From a virus, in IMG/VR virus record IMGVR_UViG_3300042879_001279, positions 1 to 22,770 of that record: 22,770 nucleotides of DNA, one strand, 5' to 3'. Under the pieces are notes generated by a model. That model was given only the letters and a program-made list of their open reading frames with translations, did no database searches and had not been told where the DNA came from. Positions 1 through 13,636 of the stretch are shown in pieces; the stretch's first letter is position 1; every line of letters begins with the position of its first letter. The translations under genes were made by a program, and so were the position numbers.

Positions 1-3000
1 CTCCGTTTGCAAGTAGCTGTTCATGCGCTGCGCCAGCCAACGCAATGGCTTCAAGTTGTATGTCAGATATTCCGACGTAGATCCCGTCTTCATTAACATA
101 CCCAGAAAAAACCCCTGGCATCAAATCGACTTCATACTGAATGTTCGGTGCATCTACTGCCGCCATAGCAGCAGACTCTACGATTGGAGCAGGGTGAGGT
201 CTGGAGCCTTCTGATGAAATAGAAGGAACGTAAACCTCAAAAGTGGAGTCCGTCAACTCGCCTTTTTTAGACAAGGACTTAGGTCTAGTCTTTGCCGAGA
301 ACTTCGTCACTCCTCCTCGGAGTGCGTCATCAGGCTTTCCAGCAGGAGCAGGACTAGGCTCCCCTTTTCTGCCTGAACGGATAGACTTTCGAGACGATCC
401 TCCACCGCCTCCCCCTCTCCTCCCGCTGCGAGTATTACGGCCTGTTGTCCCGGTTCCAGAACGTGCATCTGCATCGCCGTCTCCTCGATCGTTTGAAGGT
501 TGTGGAGCCTCAACCCCTCCCTTTTCTCCGCTGGAAGACTCAGGAACTCCTGTATCAATTGCGTCGCGTGCATCATCTGAGGGTTTGGTTCCACCCCCAT
601 CTTCTTTAGTTCCTTGCTCGCCTTCTTGTTGATCGCGAGTTGATTCCACGTTTGCATTTTGTCTTGCATTTCGCACCTCTGTTGCGATATCAATAAGCTG
701 CTCTAAACCACCAGCCATTCCAGTGATTGTCTTTGTGTTAGCCCTCGGAACCTTGTCAATCACCAGCACCCTGGTAGGAAACTCGGTTCCGTATCCACGA
801 TAAACCTCTCTTGCCACTTCGATGTTTGCAGTCAGTTTGTATGGAAGATCATCCATCCATTGGGTCATCTTCTTGCCTTGCCCGTGCAAGCCCGCCCCGA
901 TGATAGCTACAAGCCGACCTCCGTCAGGAAGCAACGACAGCGCCTCATCAATGTGCTTCCGGTCTGTCCCTTGGATCATCTTGTCACCCATTCTCTTACC
1001 TGCGCGGCTAAAGGGTGGGTTCATAATGATTACAGTCAAGCCTGGAGTTTTCCCGGCTAATATCGCTCCGATTTGCTCCGCATCTTCAGTGAACACCTTT
1101 TCTATTGGAAGTTCTCGCAGACCATTTGCTCTTGCTTCGTCTAACTCGTTTGCGTAAACCGTAGCGCCTGAGTTAGCGGCATGTATAGCCAATCCACCCA
1201 TTCCAGCGCTGGGCTCAAGAACAACGTCATTCGAAGTGACGTTTGCTATCCAATTAACTGCGTAAGCATAAGCAGGAGGAGTAGAGAACTGTTGCATCGT
1301 CTCTTTGTTTCCCGTTCTACCCCTATGTCTCGGAACAAGTTGCATGACTTGCCTGATCTGCTCCAGGATCTCCTTTGCTTCTAATGGGGATACATTGGCG
1401 TTTGTTTTTCCCTGCAAGTACATGTTTACGCCAAGCTCAAGGGCATCTGTAGCCTCCGAGTCACCGTATTCGTTGTTTGACCTCTTTCCACCGAACTCCT
1501 CGTCTGCCATGGCGAAGAATGACTGTCCAGTTAAAGCCTCTCCGTTCTCAAGGGCGCTCATTACCCTTCTTGCTAGCCTTGATTGCGGGGTGTTGTTAGA
1601 CTCAATGACATTGCCTTGGTCGTCCACCAAAACATCGCTGCGGATCGTCTTGCTTGCCGGCCAATTCGTCCTTTTGCCGTTCTTCCTTACTATCAAGTTG
1701 CCGTCCTGCCCGACGCCCTCGTATCGACCGATATCAGTTGCGTCATCTGTTCTGACTACTGCATCGCCATACTGGAACTTGGGCTTCTCGGTGCCGTCTT
1801 CCGTTTCCTTTTCTTCCAGTAGAGCCAAAACACTCTGCGATTGATCGAGTCGATCGTCAAACTCAGCCTTCTTGTTCCAACCCGCCTCAAGGTACTTTGC
1901 ATAGCTTCTGGCGTTCTGTATGCCGACAAGTTCCACTACCGATTCAATGAAGTCGACAAATTTGTATTTGCCAGCCTCAATCAGACCGTCAGCCATCATT
2001 CCAAGACCGCGAGCGATCTTTTCATTCATCGGGATGTTCGCAAACGGAGTGTTGCCTTTGGCAGCGTCCTTGATACCCTCGATAAACAGCTTGGCTCCCT
2101 CTTTAGCCTTGTCCAGACCCTCTTTAACGCCTTCTTTCGGCTCTTTTTTGAGCGTCCTTGGTTTCTTTGGCGGGACTGCCTCCGTAGGTTTTACGTCCTC
2201 GTACTTACCCTCTAGTAGCGCGGTGAGGTATTTGTCCTCTTTGTCTGCCGTCATAGGCATAAGCACACCTACGGGCTCGCCGTCGACCGTGTAAAGAACC
2301 GCTTGCTTGATCGCTTGCCCCTTGTCCTCGCTACCCCATATCTTAGCTGTCGGGTGACGCTTCATAATCGTGTCATGGTACGCCTTGTCTACAATTGCGT
2401 ACTGACCAGTCTTGTTTTTCAATACGGCAGTCCTTATGGACAATTCGCCCCCGCGATAACCAGCAGGAGACATTTCGTTGTCGCTGTAACTGGAAAGCTT
2501 TTTAGCGGAATCGATGACTCCCTGGATTTGAGCAGGAAATGTCTCTCCAGACAATTTCGAGCTTTTTAGTATCGCATCCCTGTCCTTCTCAGAAACCTTG
2601 ATCAGTACCCTGCCATCGGTGTAGAAACCAGTATCTCGCAGGGCGGAAACAAAACGCATCGCCCTTCCAGCGTCGTCCCACAAGCTTGCAAGCTTCTGGT
2701 TCGAGTAGGCTAAACTCTGAGTGTCCGTGATGGTGAATCGCTTGTCTGCTTCGCTGTCAAACGTGCCTGCAAAGATTCGTTCGGCAACATTCTTTGCGCG
2801 TTTAAGATCGGTTATTCCACCGGCAATGTCCTGCTTGGATTCAACGTTCCTAATTGACCATGTGTAGTAATGCTTGCTGTATTCAATTAACAGGACATCC
2901 TTGCCTTTGATGGCTCGAATCGTTCTGGCGATGCCTGCCACATTCTGCTTTAGCTCACTGTATTCCGTTTTTTCCTCTGCTACTGGCTCTGCCTTAACAG

Positions 3001-6000
3001 GGGTAGGTTTCTTGCCTTTTTTGGGCTCAGGTTGCTTTGTTCCAGCAAAAGCATTAACGAAGTCCTCAACGCTCATCTCACCTTCTGCTTGAGGCTGCTC
3101 TGCGGCTGGCTTCTTTTGTGATGCTCTTTCAGCGAGTATTTCATTAGATGCTTCGTTGATTTCTCCGGCCAGATCCGGACGCCTCCTGATCAGCCACCAC
3201 TCGAAATAGCCAGCTCGCTCGATGGGGACTTCCGACAGCAATCGATAAATATCTTGCTTGCGTATCTTGGAAACGTCATCGGCTACAATTTTAATGAAGT
3301 TCTCGCTAAACAAGCGGGCTTCCTCTGACTCATCAAGACGTTCGTCTCGTTTTTGAGCAGGCGACTTCTCAGTTGCCACTGGCTTGGATTCATTTCTTCC
3401 AAGGTAAGATCGCACCATGCCGGTGAACTCACTGGAGTTAAAACCGTTGATCCAGTCTCGCAACTCTGGAGAAATGTCTCCAGCGTAGGCGACTTCGGTG
3501 GTTAAAGCGCCAAACTCAGCATCAACGGCGGTTTTGATCACAGCGGTAATGCCAGTTTCGTTCCAGTTTTTCGTGTCATACATTGGCTGTACTTTTTCGA
3601 CGACACGTTCCCTCAATTCAGCTTCCATTTCAGATGGCGTTGATGGAACCTTTGCTTGCGTTCTACCTCCCTCCGATGGCAGATCTTTTGAGTAGCCAGG
3701 AATGCGATCGAGGTGAGAACTGAAAACCTCGATGTAATCACCAAACGCAGGGTGCTTGCCTCTGGTAAACGGAACGCCCTCGGGAATCACCGTATCGGGA
3801 GCAAATCGCACCGCATTCTTGAGTCGCTGCTTGACTACCAAAGGTTTAGTTGATTGAGACGCTGCTTGCGGCTTTTCGCCGGTCTCTGGCTTTGCCGCCT
3901 GTTCGGTTGAGGCATAAGCTGACTTGACCTTACCCCAATCGATCTTGCCTTCTGGACTCAAGGCACCAACCTTCTCAAGCCCAGATCTCCAATTTGCGGA
4001 CACCATACCCTTGAACTTGTCGGTGTCTCCTTCAAGGAAATCAGAAAGAGCATTACGGTTATAGTCGTTTATCACACCGCCGAATGTCTCTGTAATCCAC
4101 GACGCAGACTTTCGGCTATCAGCCTTTTTCTTGCGCTCTTCATCAGCTTTACGGCGATCCGCTTCTTGTTGTGCTTTAGCTGCCTTTGCCTTTTCGTCCT
4201 TGACTCCAGCAGCACCGTACATGGAGATGTCCAAGCGTTTGCCAGATGGATCGAGAACCTTGATTCCAGTTGGCGTGACGTTTGAAACCGAGAAACCTTG
4301 TGACTTTGCCCAGTCCGAGATCGACTGCATTTGATCCGGCAGGAACTTTACGCCGACCTTATTAGGAACGATCTTCCCTGAGTTTCTTGCTGTCGAGTTA
4401 AACCTCCAGTCTCGATACGACGGTAGATTCTTAGATCGTTCCTCAGCAGCAGCGGATTCCTGCTCGGCTTTCTTCTGAGCAGCTTCGATAGCCGCTTGTT
4501 CCTGAGATCTCTTGGATTCTGCTTTTTGCGAGGCTTCCTCGAAAGACTCATACAACTCGTCGCCACCTCCCCTTCGCCCATCTCCTCGAATGGCGATGTA
4601 GTCTTTGCCTTGAACGGTAGTTTTATAAATCGAGAACTTTGGAAGCGATTCGACTTCCTCCGCCGACTTGGGTTCTGGAAGATCGCCTACTTGTGCTTCC
4701 GCTTGTGCTGGAGGCTTGGCTTTTTCTGCCCTGCGACTATCTTGTCGCCTCTTTCGCTCCGGCCACAAGCGTTCAGGATCAACACCTTCGTAGGTTCTGC
4801 CGTCGCCCTTGGAGATGTTTTGAACCAACCCCGCATTGCGAAGCGCGTCTCGTTCCTCTTGGGTGAATTGGTTTACAGAAATGTAACCTTCTGCTGTATT
4901 TAGCATGTCAGGAAACGCGCTAAAGACGCTATCAGGAACTTGCTCTATTGATACTTCCGCTTGTGCTGGAGGCTCTTGGCTCTCTGGCTGCGCTGGTACT
5001 TGCTCTTGCCCAGACCCACGTAGATCTGCGCCGCCTTGCTCTTGTCGTACTTCCTCTTGAGGGCTTCGTATTGCGCTGGCATCGGGGATTTCTCCTTGTG
5101 GTTGTGAAACTCCAGGTTCAAACGGGTTTTGTGCGGCTGGTGGTTGCGGCTGCCCTTCCGTAAAAGGATCTCCGGCTGCAGGCGGCACGACTTGAGGTGC
5201 TTGCTGAGGACTTCCGATCACATTGAATCCGATGTAATTAGTCCCACCTTCTGTCGTCTGCTTTACATCATCAACCTGATAACCTTTAGCCTGAACCGCT
5301 TTTTGAATCTCCCTCATCATCAGAGCATCAAGCGTTGGGTTGTCGGTCACAAAAGCTGTAGAACGACCCATTTTGATTGCGTAATCTGCGTGCCCATCAA
5401 TTGTCTCGCGTAGGCTTTGTATAGTCCTCGCCTGTAAAGGTTTCGGTTCTGTTCCTCGCGACCTCGCTAGATTTTGACTCCACGCATTTGCGTACTCCGT
5501 GAACGTATCAGTAGGTTCCGGTGCAGCTTGAGGCTGTTGTGGCAACCGAACCGTATCGGCGTGCTGCTTTGCTTGCTCAAACGTCGGGAAGATGTTTGCA
5601 GTAGGAAACACCTCACCGGAGTCTATATCCGTGAGGTTCACCAAGAACCCTTGAGGATTCTGCCAAACCCTAGCCACCATGTTTTCATCGCCAGCGACCT
5701 CGTAAAGCGGGGTAGGTGTGATCGGTGCTTCGACTTGCGGTGCCTGCGGAGTTGGTGATCCAGTTTGCTGTCTGGCAAACTCATCGTCAGATTCACCCTC
5801 AGAAATCATTCCGTCGATCATAGATGCGATCTCTGGATCTGGGGTGTCCTGAACCTGCATTTCCTGCTCGATACGATTGATTTCGGACTCAACGTTCGCC
5901 ATTCGCTCTCTGCGGCTGTTCCCTTCGATACCAGCCTCAGTCGCATCCTCCTCAGAAATGAAGCCCTTCTCCTTCAGTTTCTTCAGTCTCTCAGCCCTGT

Positions 6001-7225
6001 CCTGCAATGCCGAGGAAGCAGCACCAGCCGCACCAAAACCAGCACCGGCGAGCGCACCGGCAGCACCAGCCTCAGCCCACTGCATGAAGTTCTCTTTAGT
6101 CAGCAGCTTCTTCTCGGGCTCGTTAATCGTCTCGTTGACACTACCAAGAAACTCTTGAAAGCCTTCCTGGACACCTTCCTCGCCAGTGTTCTTTACCGCA
6201 TCCCAAATGTAGCCAGCGGCAGTTCGAGGATCGGCGTTTTTGATCGCCTCTCCAGTATTACCTCTACCAAGAAACTTCCTAACAACAAGCGGCATGTTAC
6301 CAAGAGCTACTTCAGATAAGCCTGATGCTTGACCTAAAGCCATAGCCGAAAGCGGATTGTCGTACCCAGCCTCTCTGCCTTCGGCATACATGCCGCCGCC
6401 TTCTTGCAGGGCTGTGATTTGCTGAGCCGCAGCCAACCCACCAACTCGCTTCGCCAAGACGTTGTTCACCGCTTGCCGACCCATGCGATCGGCAATCTCC
6501 TTGGCTACGCCCTTTTCGACATACTTTTGCGCTGCTTCAGCCATCGCCTTCTTAATTGCAGCACGACCGAACACGCCACCAAGGAATCCGGCTGGAACCG
6601 TCACAACGTCGCCTGGATCCGGCGCAGGCACAATCGCACCACCAATAGCCGCACCAGCGACACCAGCAGCACCAGCCTCAACCACAGATGGAATTAGACT
6701 ACCACCCGTACCGGCCACCCAAGTGCCGAAGTTGCCAACGCTTCCAAATGCACCCTTTTGCGGATCGGTGGAGAAAAACTGGTCTACCGTCGCTGGATTC
6801 TCCGATGCCTGACGCATCTGCTCCTGATACTGCTGGAACCTTCTGTCGGCAGCCTCAGTGTCGCCCATAGCAGCACTGTACATCCCGAGCCCGCCGTAAA
6901 AAGCCGCTTGAGTGGTGTCAATGCCACGATACAAGCCTCGCATAAACTCGTTGCGAGTGGCTAGATTTTGCTTTGCTGCCGCCTCTGTCTCTGCCGGGGT
7001 CTTTGAAACTTCTAAAGCAGGCGGTGTCTCTACGGATCCTTGTTTCACCTTTTTGAAAAGGCTAATCACATCGTTGTCGGCTGGAGTCAGTGATTCTGGA
7101 TCAAGAAATGCACCGCTTTGATCCTGATTGTAAACCAAGGACTTTTCCTCGGCAGGCTGAAACGCCCCGGCTGTAGATTCCGCCTTTACTTTTTTGATGA
7201 TATCCAGGATGTCAGTTGTGCTCAT
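1..7225 (-). CDS. Giant phage polyvalent protein: DNA methyltransferase plus strawberry-notch-type helicase (partial, 3' end off the left edge)
   Basis: The frame starts at ATG 7225 and stays open to base 1, giving at least 2408 residues; I checked all codons and found no stop and no cysteine codon. Residues 90-435 are Ala/Gly-rich hydrophobic stretches with a GVQEGFQEF motif, resembling N-termini of large phage ejection proteins. Residues 440-1590 are mostly low-complexity linkers around small domains. Around 1756 is a FVDFIESVVELVG segment usual in this family. The N6-adenine methyltransferase follows: QFSTPP (from 1979), EPSAGMGG (from 2004), NPPF (2069-2072). After a Gly/Arg/Lys linker, HPAPIVESAAMA (from 2344) and ISDIQLEAIALAG (from 2386) match the entry to strawberry-notch-type helicases; their Walker A motif would lie just past the edge. 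Known relatives include virion-packaged P1 DarB, which protects injected DNA from type I restriction. Packaging and antirestriction here are inferred. Confidence 0.88.
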   Translation of the reverse strand, partial: MSTTDILDIIKKVKAESTAGAFQPAEEKSLVYNQDQSGAFLDPESLTPADNDVISLFKKVKQGSVETPPALEVSKTPAETEAAAKQNLATRNEFMRGLYRGIDTTQAAFYGGLGMYSAAMGDTEAADRRFQQYQEQMRQASENPATVDQFFSTDPQKGAFGSVGNFGTWVAGTGGSLIPSVVEAGAAGVAGAAIGGAIVPAPDPGDVVTVPAGFLGGVFGRAAIKKAMAEAAQKYVEKGVAKEIADRMGRQAVNNVLAKRVGGLAAAQQITALQEGGGMYAEGREAGYDNPLSAMALGQASGLSEVALGNMPLVVRKFLGRGNTGEAIKNADPRTAAGYIWDAVKNTGEEGVQEGFQEFLGSVNETINEPEKKLLTKENFMQWAEAGAAGALAGAGFGAAGAASSALQDRAERLKKLKEKGFISEEDATEAGIEGNSRRERMANVESEINRIEQEMQVQDTPDPEIASMIDGMISEGESDDEFARQQTGSPTPQAPQVEAPITPTPLYEVAGDENMVARVWQNPQGFLVNLTDIDSGEVFPTANIFPTFEQAKQHADTVRLPQQPQAAPEPTDTFTEYANAWSQNLARSRGTEPKPLQARTIQSLRETIDGHADYAIKMGRSTAFVTDNPTLDALMMREIQKAVQAKGYQVDDVKQTTEGGTNYIGFNVIGSPQQAPQVVPPAAGDPFTEGQPQPPAAQNPFEPGVSQPQGEIPDASAIRSPQEEVRQEQGGADLRGSGQEQVPAQPESQEPPAQAEVSIEQVPDSVFSAFPDMLNTAEGYISVNQFTQEERDALRNAGLVQNISKGDGRTYEGVDPERLWPERKRRQDSRRAEKAKPPAQAEAQVGDLPEPKSAEEVESLPKFSIYKTTVQGKDYIAIRGDGRRGGGDELYESFEEASQKAESKRSQEQAAIEAAQKKAEQESAAAEERSKNLPSYRDWRFNSTARNSGKIVPNKVGVKFLPDQMQSISDWAKSQGFSVSNVTPTGIKVLDPSGKRLDISMYGAAGVKDEKAKAAKAQQEADRRKADEERKKKADSRKSASWITETFGGVINDYNRNALSDFLEGDTDKFKGMVSANWRSGLEKVGALSPEGKIDWGKVKSAYASTEQAAKPETGEKPQAASQSTKPLVVKQRLKNAVRFAPDTVIPEGVPFTRGKHPAFGDYIEVFSSHLDRIPGYSKDLPSEGGRTQAKVPSTPSEMEAELRERVVEKVQPMYDTKNWNETGITAVIKTAVDAEFGALTTEVAYAGDISPELRDWINGFNSSEFTGMVRSYLGRNESKPVATEKSPAQKRDERLDESEEARLFSENFIKIVADDVSKIRKQDIYRLLSEVPIERAGYFEWWLIRRRPDLAGEINEASNEILAERASQKKPAAEQPQAEGEMSVEDFVNAFAGTKQPEPKKGKKPTPVKAEPVAEEKTEYSELKQNVAGIARTIRAIKGKDVLLIEYSKHYYTWSIRNVESKQDIAGGITDLKRAKNVAERIFAGTFDSEADKRFTITDTQSLAYSNQKLASLWDDAGRAMRFVSALRDTGFYTDGRVLIKVSEKDRDAILKSSKLSGETFPAQIQGVIDSAKKLSSYSDNEMSPAGYRGGELSIRTAVLKNKTGQYAIVDKAYHDTIMKRHPTAKIWGSEDKGQAIKQAVLYTVDGEPVGVLMPMTADKEDKYLTALLEGKYEDVKPTEAVPPKKPRTLKKEPKEGVKEGLDKAKEGAKLFIEGIKDAAKGNTPFANIPMNEKIARGLGMMADGLIEAGKYKFVDFIESVVELVGIQNARSYAKYLEAGWNKKAEFDDRLDQSQSVLALLEEKETEDGTEKPKFQYGDAVVRTDDATDIGRYEGVGQDGNLIVRKNGKRTNWPASKTIRSDVLVDDQGNVIESNNTPQSRLARRVMSALENGEALTGQSFFAMADEEFGGKRSNNEYGDSEATDALELGVNMYLQGKTNANVSPLEAKEILEQIRQVMQLVPRHRGRTGNKETMQQFSTPPAYAYAVNWIANVTSNDVVLEPSAGMGGLAIHAANSGATVYANELDEARANGLRELPIEKVFTEDAEQIGAILAGKTPGLTVIIMNPPFSRAGKRMGDKMIQGTDRKHIDEALSLLPDGGRLVAIIGAGLHGQGKKMTQWMDDLPYKLTANIEVAREVYRGYGTEFPTRVLVIDKVPRANTKTITGMAGGLEQLIDIATEVRNARQNANVESTRDQQEGEQGTKEDGGGTKPSDDARDAIDTGVPESSSGEKGGVEAPQPSNDRGDGDADARSGTGTTGRNTRSGRRGGGGGGSSRKSIRSGRKGEPSPAPAGKPDDALRGGVTKFSAKTRPKSLSKKGELTDSTFEVYVPSISSEGSRPHPAPIVESAAMAAVDAPNIQYEVDLMPGVFSGYVNEDGIYVGISDIQLEAIALAGAAHEQLLANG

Positions 7226-9815: not shown

Positions 9816-11648
9816 CTAAATCGCAACCCCGTCGCTAAACGGCCTGTCTTTCCTCCAGGACTCCCAATACGGGTGCTCAACTGGAACTTTGTACTGCTGA
9901 TGCAGCATTTCCCTGCCAATTTGCAGGGATTCCTGTTTCCAGTGAACTGGGTGCGACTTATGGAAGAAAAACGGCTCGCCAATCCAACGTATTTTGGCTT
10001 TTATGCTCTCTAAGTGAATCGGAACCCACCAATCCCACATTGTCTGCCCGATCGCAAAATCCAGGTCTGGGAATGATTCTACATCCTCTGGGAACAATAA
10101 AAACGCATCAATTCCCCATCTTTCGATGTTTGTTTCAAATATCCCGTGATCGTAATTGTGCCGAAGTCCTATCAGTCTTTCCCTGGATTTTAACGCGTCG
10201 AGCAGTATCGACTGCGATCCGTGCATCTCAATGTCTGAATTTATCAGCAAAAACGCTCCGGAAACAATATGCAAAAGATCGTAAATCCTCGTAGTCGGTC
10301 GATCGTAAGAACTAGACTGTCGGCAAGGTACAAAATTGACATACGGATAGATCTCCCGCAACTGAGCAATGTCTCTCTCAGAGTTTCCAGCAACAACCCT
10401 CAATCCCATATCCACCCAAGACTGCAAACATCGCTCTTGAACCTTGATGTGATGCGGCAGAAGCGACAATGATGTCACGGCAGTAAGTCCGCTTATCGGA
10501 GGCTGAGGATTCTTGATCGAAAGGTGGTCAGAAACCCTCTTGACCGTCGAAAGCTTTTGCGTGCTGGCTGAGGCGTGTACTATCCATGCGCCACGAACAC
10601 CATCCTCAAATGGCGTTATTGGCTGGCTGTGCTTTCCGTACCAATACTGCCAATTGGCTTGGTGCGGTAGCGCGTCAACGCGGAAATTGTTGCGATTGAT
10701 GTGACCTTCAATCCACACTTGTTCGGCGAAGCGAGACGTTCCTATTTCAACAGTCGGTCGTATCCAAATGTGCTTTGCCTCTCCGCGAGTGATCACCACG
10801 CCAGTGTTGAAGGCGGTTTCCAATATCGGGATATCCACGCCAGAGAGCCTGGACACTCTCTTGCGCTCTTCATTGATGATCGACGGGGATCTCAAAACAC
10901 CGTAATCGTCATGGATCACAACCTCGCCTTTGAACATGCTGAACAAGTCTGGGCAGTTATCAGTGATGATGCAGTCGGCATCCACAAACATCACTTCGTC
11001 GTACTGCTTGGCAAACTCGTAAACCCTAAACTTCTCCATCGGCCCCCAAGTCTCAGTATCGTTGTCCAGGTCGATCAGATCGGCGTTTACCCTGTCAGCG
11101 TAAGCCTGCATGTGCGATCTGGTGGTAGCAAGTATCTGCGAAAACTCCACGCCGTTTGCCACGGTGATGACAGCTCGGGTCTTTCCGGTGCTAGGTCTTC
11201 GATTGCGCCAAAGCATGTAGGCTCGATCCAGCGATACGGTAGGCTTGTCAAGCGTTAGGTTCACCTCGTTGTGAAACTCGACTGTAAACTCAAACCACTC
11301 CTCTGGTGATCCGTAGCGAGGCGGAATCTTCTTGAGTATCGCATCAACTTTCTTCTTGCACTCGCACCCGTTGGGCATGTACTTTTTGAAATCTTCGAAT
11401 AGTTCAGGCGTTCCATGCTCGATCCGATGCAACTTCGACCAAGCCTTTCGACCCTCTATGGCTTTCCTTGTCTGGTAGTCATGCAGACTTTTTTTCGTGT
11501 TTCGCTTTACGGTAATGGTCGTCACCCACCCGTTCTTCCCAAAAACGGCACCGCACGCGCAGACGTAGGGTCGTATGTCATTCGAGCAATACTGATCGCA
11601 ATGCGGACATTTACAAGTTCCTACAGTCTTTTCCTGAGCAGCAATCAT
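9816..11648 (-). CDS. Multidomain protein: zinc ribbon, Erv/ALR-like fold, GT8-like glycosyltransferase, second glycosyltransferase-like domain
   Basis: Domains in order for 610 residues. (1) Residues 12-36: zinc ribbon with CPHC (14-17) and CAC (30-32). (2) Residues 65-147: GRKAWSKLH (66-74), GCECKKK (94-100), LKKIPP (105-110) and HNEVNLTLDKP (126-136) follow the order of Erv/ALR sulfhydryl oxidases, but the cysteine pair is CxC rather than CxxC. (3) Residues 155-365: nucleotide-sugar transferase fold of GT8 type, with the metal-binding DAD motif (223-225, in VMFVDADCII) and NTGVVI (281-286). (4) Residues 385-575: a second glycosyltransferase-like domain with LLINSDIEM (467-475), WDWW (538-541) and FFFHKSHPVHW. 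ATG 11648 overlaps the upstream gene by 38 bases; GGTGAG precedes it and no later start keeps the zinc ribbon. Likely role: glycosylation of virion or host components. Acceptor and sugar are unknown. Confidence 0.8.
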   Translation of the reverse strand: MIAAQEKTVGTCKCPHCDQYCSNDIRPYVCACGAVFGKNGWVTTITVKRNTKKSLHDYQTRKAIEGRKAWSKLHRIEHGTPELFEDFKKYMPNGCECKKKVDAILKKIPPRYGSPEEWFEFTVEFHNEVNLTLDKPTVSLDRAYMLWRNRRPSTGKTRAVITVANGVEFSQILATTRSHMQAYADRVNADLIDLDNDTETWGPMEKFRVYEFAKQYDEVMFVDADCIITDNCPDLFSMFKGEVVIHDDYGVLRSPSIINEERKRVSRLSGVDIPILETAFNTGVVITRGEAKHIWIRPTVEIGTSRFAEQVWIEGHINRNNFRVDALPHQANWQYWYGKHSQPITPFEDGVRGAWIVHASASTQKLSTVKRVSDHLSIKNPQPPISGLTAVTSLSLLPHHIKVQERCLQSWVDMGLRVVAGNSERDIAQLREIYPYVNFVPCRQSSSYDRPTTRIYDLLHIVSGAFLLINSDIEMHGSQSILLDALKSRERLIGLRHNYDHGIFETNIERWGIDAFLLFPEDVESFPDLDFAIGQTMWDWWVPIHLESIKAKIRWIGEPFFFHKSHPVHWKQESLQIGREMLHQQYKVPVEHPYWESWRKDRPFSDGVAI

Positions 11649-12834
11649 CAGAACTCACCGTGATGTAGTATTCGCAAGACCCTGTTCCAAAATAGACATT
11701 GCGACAAAAACAAGCCAAATCGCTATCTGCGATCCAATACGGCCCAAACAAAAAGCAAGCTTCTCCGGTTTCGCTCGAGCAGTTGTAATCTGTTGCGTAC
11801 CGAGTGCTTGGCCCCTCTCCACTTTCCGTGCAACCGCCAGTGTTTGCCAAAACGTACTTTTCGTTGCCTTCCCCGATAGAACAAGTAAAGCTAACGACAA
11901 AGAAGCCGCAGCATTTTGTGCCTTCGTGCTTCCACGTATCATCCACTCGATCATACTCGATCTCGAAGCAACATGGTTCCAAGTTTTCAAGCCTAGCGCA
12001 TCCAGTTGGATCTGTCCAAATGCAAACATTGAGCACGGGAGGTAGTTCTATTCCGTCATTTGTTCCATAGGTCGTGTTGTCATCACAAAGGCACAGTCCA
12101 CACCGAGGACAATTCAAGTCTCTGGTTTTAGGTGGATTACTATTATAGTGTCGATAGAACTCAAAGTCGTCCGCAAGCATATCCTCTTCGCTCATGCCAA
12201 AACCGCTATACCAGCCGTTTTCAAACAACCCTTGAGACTTCATCGAGATGGATCCAAGTATCGAGTCCTCAACACCAGCACAGAAACTATCCTCGTCGAT
12301 CGCTGCGTAGAACCTCCTAGACGTTCCTGTCTCCGAAAATATCTGCAACTCCTTTAGTATCGTTTCGTTCCCGCCGCTTCCGATACCAAGCCTTATCCAA
12401 CTTCGATCAATTGGGTCGGGAGATCCGCCAAAAACACCACCGAGCCTCTCATACTCTGCGAAATAGTAGGATGTCGGCTCGCACACAACAGGATCGCCAG
12501 AGTCGGTCTTTACGACATTCAAGTAGAGTCGCCACTTCTGACCGCTGGAATACTCAGAGTATGCTCTTGGTTCTTCCTCTTGCGTAACGATCGACACGTA
12601 CATCGACCCAACTTCATCTGGGTGCTTCACGCTACAGACAGCTATCGCGTCTGGCACCTCGCAGCGAGCTCTCCAAGTCGGCACATCAACCGTGTAGTAG
12701 TCGCCTGGGTTGTCGCACCAGCCTTTACCAGAAAAAGGGGCTGACACTCGCTTCCCTAGAGGAGTTCCCGGCTCGTCTCTCGTGAAATCATCCGAGAATA
12801 TCAGGCATTCAACGCAACAGCATCTTCGTGACAC
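11611..12834 (-). CDS. Cysteine-rich protein with jelly-roll-like N-terminal region, 407 aa
   Basis: About 29 of 407 residues are cysteine, starting with CCC at 5-7. Residues 11-230 begin FSDDFTRDEPGTPLG and continue W-x-GDYYTVD, which recalls LamG/concanavalin-like jelly-roll domains of the DDFxR...LGxxW type. The C-terminal half (240-407) is dense in cysteine, with CPRCGLCLC (242-250), CC pairs near 284, 304 and 400, and a pattern I associate from memory with planctomycete and phage-like proteins. It could be a disulfide-stabilised or metal-binding appendage. The start is GTG at 12834, preceded by GAGG at 12841-12844 with six bases of spacing. It lies 16 bases after the preceding gene and overlaps the next by 38 bases. 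There is no clear signal peptide, so any disulfides would have to form in the virion or with a dedicated oxidase. Exact function unknown. Confidence 0.72.
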   Translation of the reverse strand: MSRRCCCVECLIFSDDFTRDEPGTPLGKRVSAPFSGKGWCDNPGDYYTVDVPTWRARCEVPDAIAVCSVKHPDEVGSMYVSIVTQEEEPRAYSEYSSGQKWRLYLNVVKTDSGDPVVCEPTSYYFAEYERLGGVFGGSPDPIDRSWIRLGIGSGGNETILKELQIFSETGTSRRFYAAIDEDSFCAGVEDSILGSISMKSQGLFENGWYSGFGMSEEDMLADDFEFYRHYNSNPPKTRDLNCPRCGLCLCDDNTTYGTNDGIELPPVLNVCIWTDPTGCARLENLEPCCFEIEYDRVDDTWKHEGTKCCGFFVVSFTCSIGEGNEKYVLANTGGCTESGEGPSTRYATDYNCSSETGEACFLFGPYWIADSDLACFCRNVYFGTGSCEYYITVSSDDCCSGKDCRNL

Positions 12835-12850: not shown

Positions 12851-13636
12851 CTATTCTTTGCACTCACAATCATCCTCCCCTTCTGGTTCGCACTCGCACG
12901 GAAGAATTTCATCCGGATCACACTTGGCATCAATTATCCAATACTTACCCTCTTGGAACAAAACCAAACCTTTCGTCCCAGCCACCATTTCATCCGATGC
13001 GCCAGTCGGGTCGTATATGTCTGCTAGGTGCGGCCACTTGCCTGTCATTTGACGCACGCAAGCCGAGCACTTCCCTTCTCCAGTGTCAAAATCTTCCTGC
13101 GATTGGAATTGGAACAGCTTAGTTTCTGTATGGACTAGCATCCAGTTGATCACTTTTCCATTGTGATCCATTAGTATCGATATCTCGTCCTCAAGGCATT
13201 TCGGATGACCACCATAAGGGGATGCGTCAACGACACCTGAGTTTTGCCCTACTCTCCATTTAACCTCAATCGGAGACGGGGGGACATAATGCACATCAAC
13301 ATCTGCAATTCCCTGCGTTGGCAAAAACGCTGGAAACACTTCCCCAATGCGATATCGCTTCGCACCACCCTCGGTGACTCTGCATCCAAACGGCTTTGCT
13401 ACTGAAATTCCAGGCTTCTCGGAATTGTTTTCTGCGTAATCAATGAATTTGAGTATTCTCGGGTCGAATCCCCGACATACGACATGATTCTCGTATTTGT
13501 CCTCGCATGCAATCTGAACCATTGCGCAATAAGGCCACTCTCCGTGCAACTGCAAGTCGTCATGATCACCACGCATCGCATTGAACGGCGAGGGGATCTG
13601 AAAACCTGGAGTTGGACGGCGCTTCTTACGAAACAT
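12851..13636 (-). CDS. Hypothetical virion-associated protein with acidic Cys tail, 261 aa
   Basis: Not recognised. The N-terminus is basic (MFRKKRRPTPGF) with no membrane segment. The middle is predicted mixed alpha/beta. A CSAC motif lies at 190-193. The last 25 residues form an acidic tail with five cysteines (PCECEPEGEDDCECKE), a possible metal-binding or disulfide knot. It has about 12 cysteines in total. ATG 13636 follows the stop of the coiled-coil gene by one base (TAA-G-ATG), which suggests translational coupling; no strong Shine-Dalgarno sequence is visible. With the Cys-rich gene 16 bases downstream it forms a cysteine-bearing pair between the fibre genes and the glycosyltransferase fusion. 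Probably a structural or assembly protein of the tail region, by context only. Confidence 0.7.
   Translation of the reverse strand: MFRKKRRPTPGFQIPSPFNAMRGDHDDLQLHGEWPYCAMVQIACEDKYENHVVCRGFDPRILKFIDYAENNSEKPGISVAKPFGCRVTEGGAKRYRIGEVFPAFLPTQGIADVDVHYVPPSPIEVKWRVGQNSGVVDASPYGGHPKCLEDEISILMDHNGKVINWMLVHTETKLFQFQSQEDFDTGEGKCSACVRQMTGKWPHLADIYDPTGASDEMVAGTKGLVLFQEGKYWIIDAKCDPDEILPCECEPEGEDDCECKE

Follow-up and report, generated by a model that had tools for sequence, protein, structure and literature searches.

A phage protein joining an Erv/ALR-like domain with a CxC pair to predicted glycosyltransferase domains, encoded beside a cysteine-rich gene

The closest described relatives of the protein reported here are the Erv/ALR FAD-linked sulfhydryl oxidases (PF04777), which include enzymes of nucleocytoplasmic large DNA viruses. 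Known Erv enzymes carry a CxxC pair adjoining the flavin (PMC10598087, PMC4721541), viral Erv/ALR members can bear extra fused domains (PMC3509050), as is the case here, and disulfides form in the cytoplasm of E. coli when yeast Erv1p is combined with a disulfide isomerase (PMC3022669). The window, by which we mean the whole stretch of DNA analysed, is a virus record of 22,770 bases. One of its genes encodes a protein that shares with the Erv/ALR family the predicted fold, the helix order, the GR--W---H and HN-VN--L-KP motifs, the final tryptophan, and the spacing from the flavin-side cysteine to the histidine. It departs from that family in having CxC in place of CxxC and valine at the position of yeast C159. 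The window protein and its relatives also differ in being found on phage contigs, fused to glycosyltransferases, and beside a cysteine-rich gene.

The gene is a 610-residue open reading frame (ORF) on the minus strand (11648-9816) with an ATG start codon, and its product contains a zinc-ribbon-like motif, an Erv/ALR-like domain, a GT8-like domain, and a second glycosyltransferase (GT) domain, in that order. A preliminary description had listed a series of motifs along this protein, and all of them were found in the order that it gave: CPHC (residues 14-17), CAC (30-32), GRKAWSKLH (66-74), GCECKKK (94-100), LKKIPP (105-110), HNEVNLTLDKP (126-136), DAD (223-225), NSDIEM (470-475), and WDWW (538-541). 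The active-site pair, however, is CxC where known Erv enzymes have CxxC, a difference that had gone unremarked. The cysteine-rich neighbour gene had also been overlooked. The features of the locus are as follows.

9816..11648, minus strand: Erv-GT protein, 610 residues (ribbon-like motif, Erv/ALR-like domain with CxC, GT8-like predicted GT-A domain, second predicted GT-A domain)
11553..11609, minus strand: zinc-ribbon-like CxxC...CxC, residues 14-32 (C14, C17, C30, C32)
11193..11486, minus strand: Erv/ALR-like helix bundle (predicted), residues 55-152, with GR-W-H at 66-74, CxC at 95-97, HN-VN at 126-130, K135, and W147
11358..11366, minus strand: CEC (C95-E96-C97), the CxC that replaces the Erv CxxC
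10515..11207, minus strand: predicted GT-A domain, GT8-like, residues 148-378, with the D223-A-D225 motif
9819..10496, minus strand: second predicted GT-A domain, residues 385-610, with NSDIE at 470-474
11611..12834, minus strand: cysteine-rich protein, 407 residues, 29 Cys (7.1%), GTG start, N-terminal CCCxxC, proposed substrate

Compared with the near-identical genes of L002, L003, and L004, the window gene shows dN of 0.013-0.020 and dS of 0.126-0.169 by a simple count over the whole gene. The dN/dS ratio is about a tenth for the whole gene and nearer 0.2, about a fifth, for the Erv part. Since dN is well below dS, the ORF is a real gene under purifying selection. Elsewhere in the window, a minus-strand gene at 2-7225, cut by the window end, encodes at least 2408 residues, none of them cysteine, and includes a methyltransferase-like part and an AAA_34 (P-loop NTPase) part.

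Homology and active site of the Erv/ALR-like domain

The Pfam family Evr1_Alr (PF04777) matched residues 87-143 of the window protein with an E-value of 9.7e-6 and 26.3 bits, just below the cut-off of 27.6. In a genome-level search the window reached 29.8 bits, above the cut-off, and none of the 14 control genomes gave a match. All 13 members scanned singly, the window included, matched the family at E up to 1, the best at 3.3e-9. Scores above the cut-off were obtained for four of six relatives in one scan (L036 and L016 fell below), for four of five in another set (L116 reached 42.2 bits), and in a further pair for L107 (36.0 bits), with L076 just below at 27.5 bits. The divergent member L118, the fifth of the set with L116, had no Pfam match, yet it was matched by the family profile. 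When a profile of 13 family members was searched against the PDB, all 16 sequences retrieved were Erv-family sulfhydryl oxidases, with a best E-value of 2.9e-7.

The AlphaFold (AF2) model of residues 1-154, built from an alignment of 27 sequences with the window's, had a mean pLDDT of 81.6 and a pTM of 0.59, and pLDDT was 85-97 per ten-residue block across residues 61-150. In a Foldseek search of the PDB with this model, the top 25 matches were Erv, ALR, or QSOX chains, and only one of the 44 matches had an E-value below 0.001. Structural alignment (VIA) gave ALR a Z score of 10.3 over 101 residues (rmsd 3.4), and the first chain outside the family had a Z score of 4.6. A Z score of 10.3 is by itself not decisive for a helical bundle, but the predicted fold agrees with the sequence evidence. 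The preliminary description had proposed an Erv fold for this segment and had named a structure of residues 65-147 without the Erv bundle, or matches to an unrelated fold, as what would refute it. Neither was encountered, as the model and the Foldseek matches are both of the Erv type. The profile, PDB, and fold matches rule out a chance resemblance of motifs, and by these matches the Erv part is truly homologous to the Erv/ALR family.

Searches for described phage counterparts gave little. No Erv-like family was found in PHROGs with the window protein, L036, L020, and L042 as queries, or in NCBIfam with the window protein, L036, L078, L076, and L107, and the Erv segment had no match in the reference phage collection. 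Among the best 50 of 164 matches in BFVD (predicted viral structures), every named match to rank 47 was a eukaryotic-virus sulfhydryl oxidase, and one named phage protein stood at rank 50 with an E-value of 1.2; 12 of the first 49 rows are unnamed, which leaves room for a phage protein among them. In the open-access PMC literature, no fusion of a phage Erv-like domain with a glycosyltransferase appeared among the matches listed, and most subscription papers and bioRxiv lay outside that scope. Bacterial counterparts were also looked for in genome contigs with two alignments as queries: the first gave no match, and the second gave one short stretch, L067, which was discarded, as only 22 residues matched in a 55-residue open frame and the remainder of the domain was missing.

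Relatives were gathered by scans of viral contigs. The CxC pair is present in all 34 distinct Erv domains and CxxC stands at the site in none of them, the middle residue being E, G, S, A, D, P, N, or T. These domains were collected by profile searches whose seed was the CxC family itself, and a distant CxxC relative could have escaped them. The Erv enzymes in the alignment of the family profile with the PDB carry CxxC. In yeast Erv1, the flavin-side Cys133 lies 29 residues ahead of His162 (PMC4721541). C97 of the window protein lies 29 residues ahead of H126, the same spacing, and therefore corresponds to the flavin-side cysteine; across the family the spacing is 29 in 27 of the 34 domains, 26 in four, and 28 in three. 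By this mapping, the partner cysteine is one residue closer than in yeast, with G94 at the place of Cys130 and the cysteine at position 95.

Thirteen FAD-contact residues of yeast Erv1 are given in PMC4721541. When they were mapped by spacing, eight were identical in the window protein (G66, R67, W70, C97, H126, V129, K135, and W147) and five differed (Y128, F137, C159, F174, and R182 in yeast; P92, V101, V123, V138, and L146 in the window). One of the differing contacts is an arginine; at the equivalent position, ALR carries a disease mutation (PMC4721541). Over the 34 domains, W70, C97, H126, N127, and V129 are conserved in all, W147 in 33, G66 and R67 in 30, and K135 in 29. The position of yeast C159, which belongs to the structural CX16C disulfide, is V123 in the window and is cysteine in only two of the 34 domains. 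Many, though not all, Erv enzymes have a shuttle disulfide outside the core; possible counterparts here are the ribbon-like cysteines or the cysteine-rich tail found in many members, while L019, L020, L078, and L104 have neither. In three of the 34 domains (L045, L048, and L064), tryptophan replaces the histidine of the W---H motif (H74).

Judged from these residues, the flavin pocket looks largely kept and the redox pair changed, and flavin binding is inferred. Because CxxC was looked for and is absent, we do not class the window protein among the canonical Erv sulfhydryl oxidases; it has an Erv-superfamily domain that probably works like one, its oxidase activity being an inference. CxC disulfides are regarded as stronger oxidants than the usual CxxC ones, and this would fit a substrate rich in disulfides.

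Glycosyltransferase domains and their exchange among relatives

The preliminary description had assigned the C-terminal part to a GT8-like domain followed by a second domain, and both segments are indeed predicted to have GT-A folds. Residues 148-610 were modelled with 20 relatives, and the 463-residue model had a mean pLDDT of 84.9. In structural alignments (VIA), residues 148-378 resembled the PBCV-1 capsid-glycosylating enzyme (2p73, Z 16.9) and glycogenin (Z 14.6), the latter of which we take to be a GT8 enzyme. The likeness extends to the DxD motif, D223-A-D225, in which both aspartates are at least 90% conserved in the family alignment (A8). The domain differs from these two enzymes in its identity of only 12-20%, in a score under the Pfam GT8 cut-off, and in its position behind an Erv-like domain. 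Pfam GT8 gave 12.2 bits for the window, below the cut-off of 24.3, and exceeded the cut-off in one of six relatives scanned (L036, 26.4 bits).

For the second GT domain, residues 385-597 (238-450 of the model) are predicted to share the GT-A fold of the fucosyltransferase WrtF (Z 13.6, 192 residues, rmsd 3.1), from which they differ in having 10% identity and NSD where DxD is expected; few rows of the structural alignment bear on this domain. No Pfam or NCBIfam family matched it above the cut-off, no PHROG matched at E < 0.1, and it had no match in the reference phage collection. With the full protein as query, the only matches in that collection lay in four records of Synechococcus phage S-CAM7 and covered a GT-like stretch, residues 170-286. 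The GT pair had its best Foldseek E-values to LH3, COLGALT1, LARGE1, and chondroitin polymerase, which are likewise tandem-GT enzymes, but the rmsd over the pair was 12-23, so the same two-domain arrangement is not shown. To our knowledge, none of these four enzymes has an Erv domain. The GT-A fold of both transferase domains remains a prediction from the models, and glycosylation is inferred.

The zinc-ribbon-like motif is present in many, not all, relatives, and C14, C17, C30, and C32 are kept in those that bear it. Structural-alignment rows for the Erv model start at residue 44 or later, past this motif. A different ribbon, matching a rubredoxin-like family below the cut-off, is found in L107 and L122. 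Several architectures include a GT8 domain: ribbon-Erv-GT8, Erv-GT8 (some with a cysteine-rich tail), the window type ribbon-Erv-GT8-second GT, and, on weak matches only, ribbon-Erv-GT8 with a phosphoribosyltransferase-like and a HAD-like part behind it (L036:3863-5893 and L069:3812-5824). Other members join the Erv domain directly to the second GT domain, with or without the ribbon, and in L147 alone (L147:5914-7422) a ribbon and an Erv domain with CxC precede a GT-B domain (Pfam Glycos_transf_1, E 3.3e-20), a fold class unlike that of the window transferases. The Erv domain stands alone in L099 and L102. In L076:3587-4282, L089:3587-4294, and L090, a protein with an HExxE stretch, which we take to be zincin-like, ends in an Erv CxC domain and has no transferase. 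The joining of one Erv-like module to different transferases suggests that the partnership with sugar transfer matters.

Some smaller observations concern individual members. L045, L047, L048, L049, and L036 share, at their C-termini, a cysteine-rich tail some 20 residues long that might serve as a shuttle disulfide. In L077:3893-4966, the Erv and second-GT pieces lie in different frames, as if a fused gene had been broken or misassembled. L119:3566-4690 and L123:3626-4732 have another cysteine-rich stretch ahead of the second GT domain, replacing the Erv-like domain.

The cysteine-rich neighbour gene and its setting

Directly upstream of the Erv-GT gene, and overlapping it by 38 bases, is the cysteine-rich ORF of 407 residues. 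We picked 32 representative loci and selected their ORFs by a simple length rule; L019, whose locus starts some 240 bases ahead of the ORF, and the near or cut-off copies L014, L015, L064, and L066 were left out. The upstream gene was cysteine-rich in 30 of the 32 loci, with 6.2-10.0% Cys (17-47 residues), and in those 30 it was the highest-Cys same-strand ORF among ORFs of at least 100 residues. The exceptions are two zincin-like-fused loci, L076 (3.6% Cys) and L089; the gene of the latter was flagged as top-Cys at only 2.3% and counted as not cysteine-rich.

The 30 cysteine-rich proteins fall into four groups (16, 11, 2, and 1 members) that BLAST does not join. A CCC motif lies within the first 60 residues of 11 of 14 divergent proteins; in 2000 shuffles the mean was 0.39 and the maximum 3. 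In two group alignments, cysteine accounts for 17 of the 53 invariant columns of one group and 12 of the 19 of the other. No match was found to Pfam (five proteins scanned), PHROG (two), or NCBIfam (two), each at E up to 1, and the window protein of this kind had no match in the reference phage collection.

A search from the cysteine-rich side covered 28 loci. An Erv domain is encoded next in 25 of them, and the other three end at a sequence edge. This count is weakened because earlier finds through the Erv or GT parts had already included 24 of the 28 contigs; of the other four, only L147 allowed a judgement, and there the Erv domain is present. The count of 30 in 32 does not depend on it. 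Nine loci that carry the second GT domain without the Erv domain served as a control: their upstream genes had 0-5.9% Cys, none reaching 6%, the closest being L119 (5.9%) and L123 (4.5%). These nine are distant relatives and therefore an imperfect control. The loci also share descent, and some are near copies (the window, L002, L003, and L004), so the 30 loci represent far fewer independent events.

The proposal of a virion operon in the preliminary description is supported in part. A tail tape-measure match was found in seven of 13 relatives tested (L020, L047, L049, L078, L102, L104, and L114), where the tape-measure ORF lies upstream, with two or three genes between it and the cysteine-rich gene; no such match was found in the other six (L036, L065, L069, L107, L116, and L118). 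In the window itself, no neighbour gene matches a virion family, so its virion operon is inferred from gene order. Two large-terminase families matched three of 12 related records.

Proposed function and alternative explanations

We propose that the protein is a cytoplasmic maturation enzyme that forms disulfides in a cysteine-rich tail protein and probably glycosylates it as well. We put the probability of this reading at about one half. The homologies of the domains, the CxC pair, the retained pocket residues, the pairing with a cysteine-rich gene, and the nearby tape-measure gene of seven relatives are established, whereas FAD binding, the oxidase activity, the substrate, and the glycosylation are inferred. 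The enzyme would be made in the host cytoplasm as a phage protein-maturation enzyme. Its Erv-like domain most likely binds FAD, with C97 beside the flavin and C95 facing outward, and the CxC pair would most likely oxidise the thiols of the protein from the overlapping upstream gene, with the flavin receiving the electrons and handing them on to oxygen or a different acceptor. The GT-A part, whether one domain or two, would most likely add sugar to the same cysteine-rich protein, and the zinc-ribbon-like motif, or the cysteine-rich tail in other members, may hold or shuttle the substrate. The result would be a tail or tail-tip protein that is braced by disulfides and glycosylated, and whose place in the virion is an inference. 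The proposed phage case is like the yeast Erv1p and isomerase set in having a cytoplasmic oxidase that makes disulfides in a bacterial cell, and unlike it in that the set is engineered, consists of two proteins, has CxxC, and has no glycosyltransferase (PMC3022669).

Several points stand against the maturation reading, among them the five differing FAD contacts, the tryptophan in place of H74 in three domains, the absence of a virion-family match beside the gene in the window, the common descent of the loci, the imperfect control, and the weak Foldseek E-values of the Erv model. In addition, the CxC domain may be redox-inactive, since the aligned Erv enzymes have CxxC, and the zincin-like-fused L076, L089, and L090 are without a transferase, the two that were tested (L076 and L089) also lacking a cysteine-rich neighbour. 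An Erv-like domain inactive as an oxidase could serve for docking, tethering or recognising the cysteine-rich protein and presenting it to the glycosyltransferase, perhaps through mixed disulfides or a metal at CxC. The lack of CxxC in all 34 domains, the five differing FAD contacts, and the fusion of the domain to a transferase beside a cysteine-rich gene at nearly all loci would fit such a role. However, both cysteines and the flavin-stacking tryptophan and histidine are retained in all 34 domains, down to about 31% identity with the window, and a pure docking domain is not expected to retain the flavin pocket. We regard docking as unlikely, while keeping it in serious consideration.

The targets may also be general or belong to the host (DNA, glycans, or other virion proteins), with the cysteine-rich neighbour being a coincidence of inherited gene order. 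The shared descent of the loci, the members with a weakly matched phosphoribosyltransferase-like and HAD-like part, and the two zincin-like-fused members without a cysteine-rich neighbour all leave room for this. Against it stand the four BLAST-unjoined upstream groups, which retain position and cysteine content, and the nine Erv-less GT loci, which stay below 6% Cys upstream, and we consider it improbable. More improbable still is that sugars are attached to cysteines of the neighbour protein, with the Erv-like domain determining which thiols stay free by oxidising or isomerising the rest. S-glycosyltransferases acting on peptide cysteines are known (SunS, glycocins), which counts for this explanation, as does the finding of an Erv-like domain with GT partners of different types next to a cysteine-rich gene, but the acceptor atom cannot be read from sequence.

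A broader claim built on the maturation reading would be that phages own a cytoplasmic oxidative folding system, in which an Erv flavin enzyme with a new CxC pair and the interchangeable transferases physically attached to it cross-link and glycosylate a cysteine-rich tail-tip protein within the reducing interior of a bacterium; we offer it only tentatively and with less assurance than the maturation reading itself. If true, phages would oxidise proteins of their own virions inside the cytoplasm, a compartment in which disulfides do not normally form, using an Erv-type enzyme whose redox pair is unlike that of the known members examined, and the giant DNA viruses of eukaryotes, with their Erv enzymes, would offer a parallel. 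As the proposed substrate is encoded next door, the idea is directly testable with two genes. A natural fusion of an oxidase-like domain with glycosyltransferases could also serve in making disulfide-rich glycoproteins in bacteria.

One further gene lies just before the cysteine-rich gene in the window, at 12851-13636 on the minus strand. It encodes 261 residues, 12 of them cysteine (4.6%), and a similar-sized cysteine-bearing gene is found in the same place in L042, L107, and L122.
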